IMG/VR virus record: IMGVR_UViG_3300036978_000277
Span: 1-23,354 of that record
Reading direction: 5' to 3' (one strand)
DNA from: a virus
DNA: 23,354 bases
Each line of letters begins with the position of its first letter. Positions within the stretch are counted from its first letter, which is position 1. A program made the translations under genes and the position numbers. Shown here piece by piece: positions 18,724-23,354 of this stretch. The notes under the pieces were generated by a model that was not told where the DNA came from, ran no database searches, and saw only the letters and a list, made by a program, of their open reading frames with translations.

Positions 18724-19037
18724 ACCAGAGTATATGGATTATGTTCAATTTGAAATGATGTGAATGCTGATGTTCTATTTACTTCGCTAATTAAACCAAG
18801 TTGCTCTAGATGAGTAAGATGCTCATTCATAACGTCTGGACTAACTGAAGGATACTTCTTCTCAAGCATTACACTTGTAAACTTAAGACGGCGATCTTCT
18901 TTACGGGAGCAGTACTCAGTCAGCATATCATAAAATACATCCTCGGCTGTTGGGTATCCTGGTAAATGTGGATATGCACCGGTGATATACTTAATTTTAA
19001 GCATATTCTTATCAATAGTTTTACTCAGCATCGGCAA
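18720..19037 (-). CDS. Small winged-helix-like protein between UvsX and gp41
   Basis: A 105-residue protein of unknown family. Residues about 40-97 look like a winged helix-turn-helix: LKFTSVMLEKKYPSVSPDVM, then NEHLTHLEQLGLISEV and a beta-wing with AFTSFQI. The start is uncertain: Met1 (19037) and Met3 (19031) lie inside the end of UvsX, while Met12 (19004) lies just after it. It ends in a 4-base ATGA overlap with gp41. Position between the recombinase and helicase makes a loader or replication-accessory role conceivable, but it does not resemble T4 gp59 in length or sequence. A transcription regulator is the other option. Confidence 0.65.
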   Translation of the reverse strand: MPMLSKTIDKNMLKIKYITGAYPHLPGYPTAEDVFYDMLTEYCSRKEDRRLKFTSVMLEKKYPSVSPDVMNEHLTHLEQLGLISEVNRTSAFTSFQIEHNPYTLV

Positions 19038-20229
19038 ATAGAGTTGTTAGTTCCTCGTGTGTGGCCTCATCGGTACCATATGAGAAGTTACTTGCAATGA
19101 TAGGCTCAAGCATAAGTAAAACTTCGTGAGTAATAACCTTTGATGTAAAGAGCTCATTGACAGGAACGGTATCATTAAGATGACGAACACAAAGCTTGCG
19201 AGAAGTAGGACTAGCTTGAAAGTACATAGTCACCTTTTCACCCTTATCAGGAGTGTATGTATGCTGCTTGCACTCTGCTTGTGCATCAGGTGACAGTTTA
19301 GCATACTCTCGCTCAGTAAGAAACTTACCACGCTCAACACCACAGTTTTCCCAGCTTATGTACTCCTCAAGGCCTACATACGGGTTCATGCCCTTATTAA
19401 ATGAAATGTGGAACTTGATTGGCTTAGGTTTAGCAAAACGGTTCTTATTAGGTTTAGCCGTGACAATAATACCAGTCTGCTCTTGACCATCGCCTTCAGC
19501 CGTATCCTTAAGCTTTGCCTTACCTAGGAAGAGAATGATTGATGCAGAGTACTCAACACCAGTTCCACCTGAGCCAACCTGTTTGGCAAAGAGATCAGTT
19601 GTCATATAGGTGTGATTGGTAAAGAGAAGAGGTATCTTACAGATGCCAAGCTTGGTCATAATAATACGGAATGTCGACTTCATTAGCTTGGCACGAGTCA
19701 TATCGGCCTTATCGCTGCCGCTCTTTGCATCGTCAATCTCTTTTTGTGTAGCTAGGTTACCTGCCGAGTCAAGCACAATCATAATCTTAGGTAGAGTGAC
19801 TCCCTTACTCTTTTGCGCAATAAGTGTATCGGTAAGAGCAGTGATGCTGGTCCTAAACTCCTGCACGGTATTACAGGGCTCATACCTAAAGCGGGCTGCA
19901 TCGATGTCAAACTTTTCAACTAGGGTTCGGTCAACCGCATTCTCCGAGTCATAATAGATGATGCTGTAACCCATCTCCTGAGCCTGTCGGACCGCATTAA
20001 GGGCGAGAAAGGTTTTGCCTGTTCCTGATGGACCGCCTAAACAAACAGCCCGGTTATTTGGGTAACCGCCAAATAGACTAGCTGTAAGGCAAGCATTTAG
20101 CATATAGTTGCCTGTTGATATGTAGTGGTCAATCTCTGAGATTGAAGACTTATCAAGAGTATCACCGTACTCTGATATTTTGCTCATCTCTTTATTAAGA
20201 TCCGAGAATGAAAATTCTTTTGCTGCCAT
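19021..20229 (-). CDS. uvsX: UvsX recombinase (RecA/Rad51 family)
   Basis: A 402-residue recombinase (T4 UvsX is 391). Walker A GGPSGTGKT spans 65-73. The catalytic Glu96 lies in YYDSENAVD, Walker B KIMIVLDSAG includes Asp154, and GSGGTGVEYSAS (219-230) corresponds to the DNA-binding L2 loop region. UvsX coats single-stranded DNA and drives strand exchange in recombination-dependent replication and repair, downstream of gp46/gp47 resection. No UvsY is recognised here. The leader AAACACAGAACAAT lacks Shine-Dalgarno, and a weak promoter-like element lies 19 bases before the ATG. The gene separates the secretion islet from the replication cluster. Confidence 0.95.
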   Translation of the reverse strand: MAAKEFSFSDLNKEMSKISEYGDTLDKSSISEIDHYISTGNYMLNACLTASLFGGYPNNRAVCLGGPSGTGKTFLALNAVRQAQEMGYSIIYYDSENAVDRTLVEKFDIDAARFRYEPCNTVQEFRTSITALTDTLIAQKSKGVTLPKIMIVLDSAGNLATQKEIDDAKSGSDKADMTRAKLMKSTFRIIMTKLGICKIPLLFTNHTYMTTDLFAKQVGSGGTGVEYSASIILFLGKAKLKDTAEGDGQEQTGIIVTAKPNKNRFAKPKPIKFHISFNKGMNPYVGLEEYISWENCGVERGKFLTEREYAKLSPDAQAECKQHTYTPDKGEKVTMYFQASPTSRKLCVRHLNDTVPVNELFTSKVITHEVLLMLEPIIASNFSYGTDEATHEELTTLFADAE

Positions 20230-20247
20230 ATTGTTCTGTGTTTAAGA

Positions 20248-20257
20248 ATTATATGGC
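20248..20257 (-). promoter_or_regulatory. Weak promoter-like element before uvsX (GCCATATAAT)
   Basis: Shares ATATAAT with the late motif but differs in its first three bases. It is 19 bases before the uvsX ATG, in the 44-base gap after the T9SS-sorted protein, and could be an early or middle promoter instead. Confidence 0.3.
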
Positions 20258-20273
20258 AATTTAGCAAATTTGT

Positions 20274-20837
20274 TTACCTTATCAGGGTGACCATGCCAAC
20301 TAGTGTTTTTGCATAGCCTTGATGATCTTCATACGTGATCTTATAACTATAAATACCCTGCTTACAAATCTTTCCTTTATATTGGCCATCCCATCCTGCA
20401 TTAATGTTACGAGTAAACCAAATCTCTTCGCCCCATCGGTTAAAGATAGACATTTGGAATTCTCTGATGTTAATGCCCTTTGCAGTAAACCTATCATTTA
20501 TCCTGTTTTCGCCAGGTGTAAATGCATTAGGTACCCAGAGTACGCTTTGGTCACAAGGAACGAGCTGTAGTGCTAGGGTAGCTTGGGTTACGCAATCCCA
20601 TTCATTAACTGCCGTGACAGTGAGCAGACCATCGGAATACCAATCAATGGTAAGAGTTTCGCTAGTCTGCTCTACAATGGCTCCACCTACCACTTCATAT
20701 GAATATATTAAGCCAGGCTGGGTAAGAATTGTATATGTAGATGGAGATCTTTGCCCAAAACAGTTAGGTAAACTATGAAAGTATTGTCCGAGTGCTATGT
20801 TAGGTAGCAGAAAGAGCAGTAAGATCCACTTTAACAT
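20274..20837 (-). CDS. Secreted protein with T9SS type B sorting domain (gliding-motility CTD)
   Basis: A 187-residue protein. Residues 1-17 are a classic signal peptide (MLKWILLLFLLPNIALG). Residues about 30-93 look like a PKD-like beta-sandwich with Cys82 and Cys95. Residues 98-187 match the Bacteroidota type B sorting domain of type IX secretion: VPNAFTPGENRINDRF, then FQMSIFNRWGEEIWFT, GWDGQYKGK and GIYSYKITYED, ending GMVTLIR. In hosts such domains carry adhesins and motility proteins through the T9SS to the cell surface. A phage copy implies that the phage places a protein on the host surface or outside it. The ATG overlaps the preceding gene's stop as TAATG, so the two small secreted proteins are coupled. 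The role could be superinfection exclusion, adhesion or virion decoration; none is shown. Confidence 0.9.
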   Translation of the reverse strand: MLKWILLLFLLPNIALGQYFHSLPNCFGQRSPSTYTILTQPGLIYSYEVVGGAIVEQTSETLTIDWYSDGLLTVTAVNEWDCVTQATLALQLVPCDQSVLWVPNAFTPGENRINDRFTAKGINIREFQMSIFNRWGEEIWFTRNINAGWDGQYKGKICKQGIYSYKITYEDHQGYAKTLVGMVTLIR

Positions 20838-21175
20838 TAGTCATGAGTAATGATACCTGTGACTGGTGTAGGGTTGATAGTAACATTACATTGTACAGGT
20901 GTACCTAAACAGCCATTGGCATCAGTCTCAACAACACTTACTTGATAGTTGCCAGGAACGGCCGACCAGTTGATTTGAATTGCATTAGTGCCTTGGCCTG
21001 TATTGATTATGCCACCAGTAACAGTCCATTGATAGGTTGAGCCTGGGTTGTTTGCCACTGCATATAGGGTAGGGCTAACATCAGCTACACAAATAAAGTG
21101 TGGACAGGGAAGAGTTTGCGAAAGAGCAGGTAGAGATCCAAGCGCGATAAGAGCAATCGTGATAATGTGTTTCAT
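20837..21175 (-). CDS. Secreted PKD-like single-domain protein
   Basis: A 112-residue protein with a signal peptide (residues 1-20, cut after ALSQ) and one PKD-like domain: SPTLYAVANNPGSTYQWTVT, then GGIINTGQGTNAIQINW and VSVVETDANGCLG. Such repeats are frequent in Bacteroidota surface proteins. The C-terminus PVTGIITHD resembles the end of the 199-residue secreted protein (FVTGQILHN), suggesting a shared short tail with a common purpose. The gene is coupled to the T9SS-sorted protein by a TAATG overlap, so the two may act together, for example as a chain of beta domains. The function is unknown. Confidence 0.8.
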   Translation of the reverse strand: MKHIITIALIALGSLPALSQTLPCPHFICVADVSPTLYAVANNPGSTYQWTVTGGIINTGQGTNAIQINWSAVPGNYQVSVVETDANGCLGTPVQCNVTINPTPVTGIITHD

Positions 21176-21180
21176 AGTTT

Positions 21181-21603
21181 TTACTTTTGTTTCTTAGACC
21201 AACTATCTGATGTTTCATTTGTCTTAATAGGACCACCAGCTGCCCAGGTATAGCATGTTCTTGCAGAGTGACACTTAAAGTGGTGCATCCAGCAATAGCC
21301 TAGGCGGCCTTCGCTGTCCTCAAGTTCACCAGGCATGCACGCCTCCATCTTTGGAGAAATGTCAAATGCTGCACAATTAGAGCATGTAGAATTTTTGGCC
21401 ACTTTAGCTGTAGTGTTCCAGTGATCGGCCAGGTGTTCCCAATAGGCTTCATCACTTAGGTTAAGAGGCCCGTACTCAATGTGCTCTGCCTTAATTGCAG
21501 CATTGCGGTTCTCGGTGTTAACCTTAAGATCTTGAGTTGCCAAAGGGCAAGCAGAGCCTTCGGCCTCGGTTAAAAATTTGCTAAACGATAGTATAGGTTT
21601 CAT
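21181..21603 (-). CDS. Cys-rich capsid-targeted protein, possible metal/Fe-S binder
   Basis: A 140-residue protein with the tag MKPILSFSKFLTE|AEGS, a predicted prohead-protease site after residue 13. The mature part has a Cys cluster: CSNC (74-77), Cys89, then GYCWMHHFKCHSARTCYTW (103-120) and GGPI. The CxxC, C, GYC, C, C-x2-W pattern recurs in marine and Bacteroidota phage proteins and recalls small Fe-S or zinc folds such as HiPIP, but the metal is not known. The leader TCTAAACAAAACAGT is A-rich, and an AATATATAAT promoter-like motif lies 15 bases upstream, so it looks late-expressed although it lies among the secreted proteins near early-type genes. A packaged metalloprotein is the best interpretation. 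Confidence 0.75.
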   Translation of the reverse strand: MKPILSFSKFLTEAEGSACPLATQDLKVNTENRNAAIKAEHIEYGPLNLSDEAYWEHLADHWNTTAKVAKNSTCSNCAAFDISPKMEACMPGELEDSEGRLGYCWMHHFKCHSARTCYTWAAGGPIKTNETSDSWSKKQK

Positions 21604-21617
21604 ACTGTTTTGTTTAG

Positions 21618-21627
21618 ATTATATATT
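21618..21627 (-). promoter_or_regulatory. Putative late promoter (AATATATAAT)
   Basis: One base from the consensus, 15 bases before the Cys-rich tagged gene and overlapping the last two bases of the upstream secreted-protein gene. Confidence 0.45.
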
Positions 21628-22225
21628 AGTTGTGAAGTATTTGTCCAGTGACAAAAGGCTGACAGCAGTCTAGTGTGGCTTGAAAGCTTTCGTTAGGATC
21701 ACCTTGACAGTCATAGTTAATCCAGCTGCCAGTCTCTCCGTCTGCATAGTTCTCAATGATAAGAGACAATAGGGCTCCGTCTTGACCTGGAGGACAGCCT
21801 ACCACAGTTGCTCTCCACCTAAAGGTCCACGGTCCGGCCAGGCCATCTCCAAAATTGTTGCCAGGATTACCGTCTAAAGGGCCTCCTAGGTCGCTATCAT
21901 AAAACCATCCTGGTCTAGAGACGGTTATGCCAGTTGCTGATGAAGTGACCGAATTAACCCATAGCCAAGTACCGTCGCCTGTGTTGTTGGTAGGAGTACC
22001 TACTGGAGTAATAGCCGTCCAGCCTAGGCCTGCATTGATGGCAATACCATGCATCCAGTTGACAGATAGTCCCTGATAAGAGGAAACCGTGTAGGTGAAT
22101 GTGACAACAGTACCTGGCTGATATACGCCTCCTACTGGAGCAGGGTTAACGGTTACCTGGTCAGAGAGAATGCACTGGCCAAATGATAGGAGAGGGCAGA
22201 GTATGAGTAGCCAAAAGAGTTTCAT
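21626..22225 (-). CDS. Secreted Bacteroidota-type surface protein
   Basis: A 199-residue protein with a signal peptide MKLFWLLILCPLLSFG and probable cleavage before Gln17. The mature part begins with VTVNPAPVGGVYQPGTVVTF and NWMHGIAI, a pattern I associate with secreted beta-domain proteins of Flavobacteriia and relatives. Trp/Gly-rich segments and six or so Cys (CPPG, DCQG, DCCQPF) suggest a disulphide-stabilised beta-sandwich. It lacks a T9SS sorting domain but ends FVTGQILHN, like the PKD protein (PVTGIITHD). The ATG overlaps the stop of the membrane protein as ATGA, so those two are translationally coupled. A partner of the T9SS-sorted protein is likely; the function is unknown. Confidence 0.8.
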   Translation of the reverse strand: MKLFWLLILCPLLSFGQCILSDQVTVNPAPVGGVYQPGTVVTFTYTVSSYQGLSVNWMHGIAINAGLGWTAITPVGTPTNNTGDGTWLWVNSVTSSATGITVSRPGWFYDSDLGGPLDGNPGNNFGDGLAGPWTFRWRATVVGCPPGQDGALLSLIIENYADGETGSWINYDCQGDPNESFQATLDCCQPFVTGQILHN

Positions 22226-22695
22226 TGGAGGTGTCTTTTATTGAGTCTCCAGGTTAGCCGCAGGAGTTGAGCATGATATAAGAGTAGGATAATGACAGCC
22301 GCGAGTTCCCCAAGTAGAATGTCATAAAAAAAGACAGGCGTGGTAAGAAGATAGGGAACTGCCCAACCCCACAGCCTCTTATCCCTAATGATAGGTGGCA
22401 GGCAACTTAAAAAGAATCCAATTGCAAAAAGGTAGTGGAGGGAGGGATGCATCTCAACCGAGAATGCAGTTAGTAGCAAGAGAAAAAAGCCGGACCACTT
22501 CCACTTGGCAGAGGAGTACATATAGTATGATGTGGCTGCATTGGAAAAGATAAAGAGAGGCTGCCACGGAGTAAGCCAGGCTGATGATAGGCTATGAAGG
22601 TCACTAATTATGAGAGGCAGAAGAGCATTAGTAAATAGCGCAAGCATGATAACACCCAGCTTAACTCTCCTGTCTTGAAAGATCTCAGTGAACAT
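22222..22695 (-). CDS. Multi-pass inner-membrane protein
   Basis: A 157-residue protein with about five or six hydrophobic segments: near residues 12-30, 43-60, 67-83, 86-103, 109-125 and 127-148. It has a positive C-terminal tail (RLTWRLNKRHLQ). No family is recognised and no catalytic motif is seen. It precedes the secreted protein with an ATGA overlap and follows gp43 after 26 bases. Together with its coupled partner it may act at the host envelope, for example in export, anchoring or superinfection exclusion; that is inference from coupling only. Confidence 0.75.
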   Translation of the reverse strand: MFTEIFQDRRVKLGVIMLALFTNALLPLIISDLHSLSSAWLTPWQPLFIFSNAATSYYMYSSAKWKWSGFFLLLLTAFSVEMHPSLHYLFAIGFFLSCLPPIIRDKRLWGWAVPYLLTTPVFFYDILLGELAAVIILLLYHAQLLRLTWRLNKRHLQ

Positions 22696-22721
22696 TACCC
22701 CCCTTTATTTAATCTATCTAT

Positions 22722-23354
22722 TTAGAAGACTCCCGTCACATAAATTAGGTTACTATTAAAGCCCTTATAGCCCATTGCATGCAGAACCCGATTGATTGGG
22801 TCAATGATTGTCTTTTCAAACTGGACATCATAGTTAATCTCAGGAGCAATTTCATAAGGGAAATCACCTGGCGCGTATGAAAAGACTTCACAGGCAGGGT
22901 CTTTACTAAAATAGAGCTTAAGCTTTTCTCCGTTACCTAGCAGCTTATACTTCTTCTTATGTTGGGAGTTATTAAGTAGATAGTTATGATAGCCGGCCGC
23001 TCTAACACCAATTGGACATTTGGGACCTATCTCAAACCGTTCATAGTCATTAATGATGTAGTTCTGATAGTTGTTCACCTTCTTTGACATTGAGATATGA
23101 TCAATGTTAGCCAGCTTAAACTCACGCTTAATCTCCTTAAGCATACCAGCAAACTGCTTCATGTCAAACTTAGGTTCCGAAAAGATAAATGTTAGCAAGC
23201 TCTTAAGCTTCTGTCTGGCAAAGAGAGGAGTTGACGACTGAATAATCTCAAATCCCTTTGCACTTACCTTAGTTAGGTCATCATAATGCAGGTTTGGATC
23301 CTTCCAAACAATGTTCTGCATGTACTTCTTTTTTGCTAACCAGATTGCATTCTT
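22722..23354 (-). CDS. 43: DNA polymerase, T4 gp43-like, C-terminal fragment cut by window edge
   Basis: The C-terminal 210 residues of a family B DNA polymerase. The frame is open to the right edge (KNAIWLAKKKYMQN before Met at 23321), so the internal Met is not the start. It matches the thumb of T4/RB69 gp43: KKKY with a following VW, then SAKGFEIIQSSTP, IGPKCPIGVRAAGYHNYLL (T4 has GPKCPFHIRGILTYN), KLLGNGEKLKLYF and FEKTIIDPINRVLHAMGY. It copies the phage genome with gp41 and accessory factors. The end, NLIYVTGVF, differs from the acidic-hydrophobic clamp-binding tail of T4 gp43 (SLFDMFDF), although it keeps a final Phe. Catalytic and exonuclease motifs lie outside the window. Confidence 0.93.
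   Translation of the reverse strand, partial: KNAIWLAKKKYMQNIVWKDPNLHYDDLTKVSAKGFEIIQSSTPLFARQKLKSLLTFIFSEPKFDMKQFAGMLKEIKREFKLANIDHISMSKKVNNYQNYIINDYERFEIGPKCPIGVRAAGYHNYLLNNSQHKKKYKLLGNGEKLKLYFSKDPACEVFSYAPGDFPYEIAPEINYDVQFEKTIIDPINRVLHAMGYKGFNSNLIYVTGVF

Follow-up and report, generated by a model that had tools for sequence, protein, structure and literature searches.

Phage-borne cargo of the type IX secretion system (T9SS) has been described before. Cargo with a T9SS type A domain was published for Cryophage in 2020, together with the idea of a function in superinfection exclusion (PMC7468147), and T9SS domains have also been noted in crAss-like phages (PMC6949934). The system discussed here is a set of three minus-strand genes, termed A (21626–22225), B (20837–21175), and C (20274–20837), in a 23,354-base stretch of viral DNA that constitutes the complete IMG/VR record IMGVR_UViG_3300036978_000277 (hereafter the window). 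Each product carries a signal peptide, and C alone carries a sorting domain. As in Cryophage and crAss-like phages, a T9SS sorting domain is encoded by a phage, the cargo is variable, and a surface or superinfection role has been proposed. The type A domains of Cryophage, however, belong to a PA14 protein and to enzymes made as single chains, whereas in the present set one type B carrier seems to act for two partners that have no sorting domain, by way of shared C-terminal tails. These precedents overtake a sequence-only reading of the same DNA, which knew of no such system in a T4-like phage: phage-borne T9SS cargo is already known, while the split architecture and the shared tail appear to be new. 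Open-access full-text searches, judged by title and abstract, returned no description of a split, tail-linked type B module, and the phrase "type IX secretion" is absent from the paper on marine megaphages.

Among bacterial systems, the closest are the type B pairs SprB/SprF of Flavobacterium johnsoniae and PG1035/PorP of Porphyromonas gingivalis, with which the phage set shares a type B domain and the logic of a surface adhesin, some megaphage relatives even bearing SprB repeats. Export of type B cargo needs a cognate PorP/SprF protein, the gene for which commonly though not always clusters with that of the cargo, and more than 200 cargo residues (PMC10202324), and PorP-like barrels hold such cargo, probably without cleavage (PMC10202324, PMC9143113). 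Unlike the cargo of these pairs, phage C has only about 190 residues and is split from its head. Moreover, PorP/SprF (PF11751) was detected in none of the 34 phage records with the A-B-C module that were searched, many of them fragmentary, whereas the positive control returned 13–18 copies in each of three host genomes, so that the phage would rely on host barrels. The grappling hook protein GhpA of Aureispira (PDB 9flp, 9flw, and others) contains related arrays of immunoglobulin (Ig)-like domains ending in CHU_C, yet it is one chain of 5,898 residues; its phage counterpart is short, and many phages encode it as three proteins cut at the domain junctions. Chaperone-usher and type V pili are alike in the proposed principle, by which each subunit supplies a short strand to fill out the Ig-like domain of its neighbour (donor-strand complementation), but no sequence relation to them is shown, the phage route would be the T9SS, and strand insertion in the phage proteins is presumed.

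A, B, and C probably represent three subunits of a phage-encoded fibre on the surface of the infected Bacteroidota cell, with A and B docked to and carried by C. The first element of this reading, that a phage protein is placed on the infected cell via the host T9SS, is well supported at the sequence level: the type B domain is complete, a signal peptide is present, and conservation is strong. C is a predicted carrier of 187 amino acids (aa) whose sorting domain (CHU_C/Bac_Flav_CTERM; residues 102–187, positions 20277–20534, minus strand) matches TIGR04131 with 51.4 bits (cut-off 35; profile positions 3–85 of 85) and PF13585 (CHU_C) with 59.4 bits (cut-off 27), as the sequence-only reading had proposed. 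Its predicted signal peptide, MLKWILLLFLLPNIALG followed by Q (20787–20837, minus strand), was judged, like those of A and B, by hydropathy and cleavage-site pattern, and the N-terminal hydropathy maximum of C is 2.61 compared with −0.5 to 0.9 in most other window genes checked. The PKD-like domain that had been assigned to C is upheld in part: Pfam places PKD_6 in the neighbouring B, while the N-terminal half of C is Ig/PKD-like by profile and fold comparison. Homologues of C are present in contigs L002, L092, L186, L089, and L088; a single-sequence scan of viral contigs with C gave no match, and an alignment-based search was needed.

B is a predicted secreted connector of 112 aa that consists of a PKD_6 domain (PF19408, 30.4 bits, cut-off 25) and a C-terminal tail, TPVTGIITHD (20840–20869, minus strand), in which T-G-x-I-T-H-D is invariant across a five-way alignment of homologues. 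A is a predicted secreted head protein of 199 aa. Its AlphaFold model, with a predicted local distance difference test (pLDDT) score of 90.7, indicates a beta-sandwich, followed by the putative docking tail PFVTGQILHN (21629–21658, minus strand), which falls within a last block of low confidence (pLDDT 67) that contains no strand. The two proteins are dissimilar, a beta-sandwich versus a PKD_6 domain, yet both end in T-x-x-I-x-H-[DN]-stop. Neither has a type A or type B sorting domain of its own by NCBIfam or Pfam; A, B, and C match no PHROG family, and a tblastn search for cultured phages with all three returned just metagenomic megaphage records and one 4.2-kb faecal contig. The stop codon of B and the start codon of C overlap in TAATG (20835–20839, minus strand), which suggests translational coupling, and the same one-base overlap recurs in L002, L092, and many other modules. 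Two further signal-peptide proteins next to C had thus been recognized correctly from the sequence, but they are better read as subunits of one A-B-C assembly than as separate secreted proteins.

What had been described as a local secretion islet turned out to be a widespread phage module, common in viral contigs of Bacteroidota phages that reach 436 kb. Tail sheath matches in 11 of the 19 module-bearing records tested support their viral nature; the remainder may be fragments or other morphotypes. A, B, and C sit side by side in L088 and in L089, the latter a contig of 153 kb that encodes head and tail sheath proteins of the T4 type; in both, the neighbours are structural genes and uvsX is not nearby. 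This contiguity at different genome places indicates that the set moves as a unit. In L089, the module adjoins a 709-aa DUF285-repeat protein (L089:7610-9739) near tail-fibre-like genes. A broader search with C showed that, across many unrelated viral contigs, the gene immediately preceding C bears the tail. Once near-duplicate viral open reading frames (ORFs) had been discarded, short CHU_C ORFs (≤215 aa) lay within 40 bases behind a tail-bearing ORF in 17 of 22 cases and longer ones in 0 of 27 (Fisher p = 4e-9, not an exact value since the sequences are related). Nearly all tail-bearing ORFs in the loci scanned belong to a module and stand beside a short C.

A held-out scan was based on B alone, with search patterns that excluded the tail; 132 viral contigs encode B, and 80 loci were kept. 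This set shares some contigs with the earlier search by C and is not fully independent, but its A tails and most of its contigs are new. The tail was present on all 43 non-redundant complete B proteins and on 41 of the 42 ORFs upstream of B, and each of the 38 intact downstream ORFs was C (131–208 bits with the C profile). Departures from a terminal HN tend to be paired between A and B, as in L242 (HY/HY), L265 (YTN/YTD), and L214 and L222 (both HD/HD); the last residues of the A and B tails in the held-out modules are N/N in 38, D/D in 2, and N/D in 1; in the window, A ends in HN and B in HD. Such co-variation fits recognition of the tail by a partner from the same module, although kinship contributes too. 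The heads, by contrast with the constant B and C, are diverse and include SP199-type, glycine-rich ALK_LTK_GRD-like, PKD with a weak WD40 signal, and weakly galactose-binding-like forms.

The order of the subunits is suggested by phages in which they are not separate. Many long phage CHU_C proteins are single-chain A-B-C proteins with the domains in the same order (67–157 bits with the B profile and 120–173 bits with the C profile). Fused chains have, for example, PPIPSTGPINGTDTICY or MGDITHNLIPCPDTTC immediately ahead of B, at the place where the split A ends in PPQVILGPISHN and mature B starts with QLTTTNPDTVCY; ahead of C, PQPTLDSITPYNPFYELC is seen, where the split B ends in PQPTLTPIQHN and mature C starts with QHTFEIC. 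A profile of A tails placed the A-B junction among the top 5% of protein positions in 19 of 22 fused chains, and a ten-residue profile of B tails ranked the B-C junction equally high in 14 of 22. Further cases are the megaphage LR745206, in which a 732-aa ORF matches the B and C proteins of L205 back to back, and L090, in which the A, B, and C regions lie within a single 544-aa ORF. The split proteins are thus equivalent to a fused chain that has been divided where its domains meet, every part having its own signal peptide, and because the junctions match the tails, they probably dock in the order A-B-C. In many contigs (L199, L215, L218, L223, and similar), the fused A-B-C gene is located directly downstream of the tail tube gene, a position that hints at late expression or a link to the virion.

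Structure models are compatible with this arrangement. The natural B-C fusion of L218, modelled as a single chain, reached a pLDDT of 89.3. Its junction, EQPTITPITPYN, from residue 173, starts in a block of mean pLDDT 95; residues 177 and 181 form isolated bridges, and the first strand of C follows at 186–189. The top fold matches of this model are fragments of GhpA (E = 5.6e-12, template modelling (TM) score 0.51 by query length), which was also found from sequence by profile (E = 1.2e-68). In GhpA, the stretch PKPQTPTIAHN (about residues 3992–4002, within 9flw) lies at the end of one matched domain, between domains. Fold matches of A are adhesin and pilin sandwiches with TM scores below 0.5 by query length, which give the fold class only.

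From what the sequence offers, namely the sorting domain, the signal peptides (by hydropathy), the module and its order, the tails, and their match to the junctions, we infer non-covalent docking, co-export of A and B, a surface location, and a role there. A, B, and C would each cross the inner membrane through their own signal peptide; in the periplasm, the tail of A would dock on B and the tail of B on C. Each tail would probably supply the first strand that the following Ig-like domain lacks, as it joins these very domains in phages with a one-chain A-B-C protein. Thanks to the type B domain of C, the assembly would then pass through the host T9SS, and the fibre would be retained on the surface by a PorP/SprF barrel of the host, with B and C as constant stalk and carrier and A as an exchangeable head. 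The fuller proposal, that a short type B protein exports two partners devoid of sorting domains in trans, that the tail completes the next Ig-like domain, and that heads are swapped via one gene, is in our judgment evenly balanced between right and wrong.

Several observations weigh against a surface fibre assembled in this way, in addition to the relatedness of the sequences behind the p value. The requirement of type B export for PorP/SprF and more than 200 cargo residues sits uneasily with phages that lack PorP/SprF and with a C of 187 aa. Unlike the ten-residue profile, one restricted to the final eight residues of the B tail fits the fused B-C junctions poorly (3–5 of 20), so that the extreme end of the tail has diverged from the junction. 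In addition, the location of the module among structural genes in L088 and L089 allows a role in the virion.

Related parts also occur in host and megaphage proteins. A-like domains are found in large Bacteroidota surface proteins (up to 49% identity), many of which have a sorting-domain-type ending, and in the megaphage LR756502 one stands at the front of a protein of 1,670 aa that also contains 13 SprB repeats, PKD, and CHU_C (L085:14379-19391, LR756502.1). This SprB-repeat protein resembles a small gliding adhesin. Marine megaphages encode several T9SS type B proteins, with CHU_C assigned in three places in L085 (LR756502.1) and four in L086 (LR745206.1). A host surface protein of 3153 aa from a Flavobacteriales metagenome-assembled genome (MAG; L127:2959-12420) ends in NPTPSTNGIYHD (GIYHD), a tail of the same kind, and bacteria may accordingly possess split T9SS assemblies, to judge from this ending. 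A search of 28 + 396 Bacteroidota genomes for P-I-x-H-[DN]-stop overlapping ATG returned only chance matches, at about the level of the reversed control; absence of the split module from hosts is not proven by this result because the pattern misses tails like those of the window. Among about 150 CHU_C ORFs listed in seven host genomes, three were short, and none of them followed a tail-bearing gene.

The genomic setting in the window is that of a T4-like phage, which is confirmed by genes for the portal, head protease, major head protein, gp46/47-like proteins, and a helicase. The flanking genes are uvsX (19021–20229, PHROG 97) and the 3' end of the DNA polymerase gene (gp43; 22722–23321), so that the placement between core replication genes noted earlier is borne out. 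The polymerase seemingly is split because the window holds just its final 199 codons; a split gene was rejected, since the frame continues to the window edge. The slot between the two genes (20230–22721, assigned to neither strand) is variable. In relatives found via uvsX, the gap mostly measures about 50 bases, leaving the slot empty, or holds an insert of 1.2–3.9 kb, with group 1 and family 11 glycosyltransferases among the inserted genes. Among 80 uvsX loci, L002 alone contains the secreted set in this slot, and a CHU_C domain was found in one of 50 relative records searched whole, that of L002; L092 and L186, which were found through the secreted set itself, have it in the gp43-uvsX slot too. 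Comparison of the window with L002 shows differences at the third position in 56–67% of codons and at the second position in 19–26% (about 2.5–3x). This excess, along with the occupation of the same slot in L002, L092, and L186, shows that the set consists of real genes and not chance frames. More broadly, the slot is a hotspot in related T4-like phages (L003, L006, L010, L012, L013, L033, and others), and its further contents include a methyltransferase-like gene and proteins of 540–570 aa without a Pfam match that look glycoside phosphorylase-like by eye. Two module-bearing phages have a uvsX with an intein-like insert and a nearby endonuclease-like ORF (L092:7022-9633 and L186:10959-12973).

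Two other genes share the slot with A, B, and C. A Cys-rich 140-aa protein without a signal peptide is encoded between A and B (21181–21603, minus strand); it was rejected as a core component, as L002, L186, L092, L088, and L089 have other genes or none at this place. A 157-aa multi-spanning membrane protein (22222–22695, minus strand) is start-stop coupled to A, in line with the coupled membrane protein of the sequence-only reading, but it is considered accessory: the gene is present in the window, L002, and L186 and absent from L092, L088, and L089. The suggested four-gene synteny therefore survives for A, B, and C only. Neither PHROG nor PADLOC gave a match for the membrane protein, nor did tblastn in 50,697 phage records, T4 included, and these searches thus revealed no homology to imm or imm.1.

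Regarding function, the fibre most likely alters binding by the infected cell, either by blocking superinfection, directly or in competition with host adhesins for PorP/SprF, or by changing adhesion, and we consider these two roles about equally likely. Of the uses suggested by the sequence-only reading, which also named gliding, they are the leading candidates. Superinfection exclusion, in which the fibre would mask or compete with host adhesins or their PorP/SprF partners as candidate phage receptors, is put forward tentatively. The gliding machinery has been proposed as a phage receptor in Flavobacterium (PMC7345892), and phages that have the cargo but lack PorP/SprF would share the PorP/SprF proteins of the host. 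The gp43-uvsX slot of T4, which contains imm.1, imm, 42, b-gt, and segA, offers a parallel that favours this role, with imm and imm.1 in the same position, a small membrane protein beside gp43 in both phages, and glycosyltransferases in the slot of relatives of the window phage. T4 Imm is, however, a membrane protein whereas A, B, and C are predicted to be secreted, no sequence relation between them is shown, a common position does not imply a common function, the module lies elsewhere in other phages, and PADLOC gave no match.

A role in adhesion is a similarly tentative candidate. Here, the infected cell or its debris would stick to cells or surfaces through the exchangeable A, helping progeny to reach new hosts. 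This role is favoured by the diversity of heads on a constant B and C, by the megaphage version with 13 SprB repeats, and by GhpA, a grappling hook, as the nearest solved relative of B-C; the weak fold matches of A to adhesins and pilins point the same way, but they indicate a fold class only.

It is unlikely that A and B are exported without riding on C, with the shared tail acting as a new short T9SS or surface-anchoring signal that is read by a host component. The tail is short, extremely C-terminal, and strongly conserved on otherwise unrelated A proteins, and the 3153-aa MAG protein ends in the same manner, all of which would suit a signal. On the other hand, it is a domain junction in fused homologues, which gives it a ready structural origin, and it resembles a junction in GhpA; the A and B tails co-vary within a module, and tail-bearing ORFs in the loci scanned are almost always adjacent to a short C. 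It is quite improbable that A, B, and C or the fused chain decorate the virion as Ig-like appendages with a host-derived structural fold in place of a sorting domain. In favour of this reading, Ig-like domains are often borne by phage virions, the module of L089 and L088 is closely followed by genes for a head-tail adaptor and the tail sheath, and many fused chains are directly behind the tail tube gene. Against it, every subunit has its own signal peptide, which would take it out of the cytoplasm, the site of virion assembly; the sorting domain is complete and strongly conserved; and the surroundings of the module in the window, L002, L092, and L186 are replication genes.

For phages of Bacteroidota, a surface fibre composed of A, B, and C would have several implications. 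The combination of tail-bearing A and B with a short C supplies a testable rule for finding secreted phage proteins that are currently annotated as hypothetical. If co-export holds, the T9SS moves proteins that have no sorting domain of their own, and the module would represent hitchhiking export through this system as well as a new mode of surface-fibre assembly. Experiments in a tractable laboratory host, for instance Flavobacterium johnsoniae, could then address directly how phages remodel the Bacteroidota surface.

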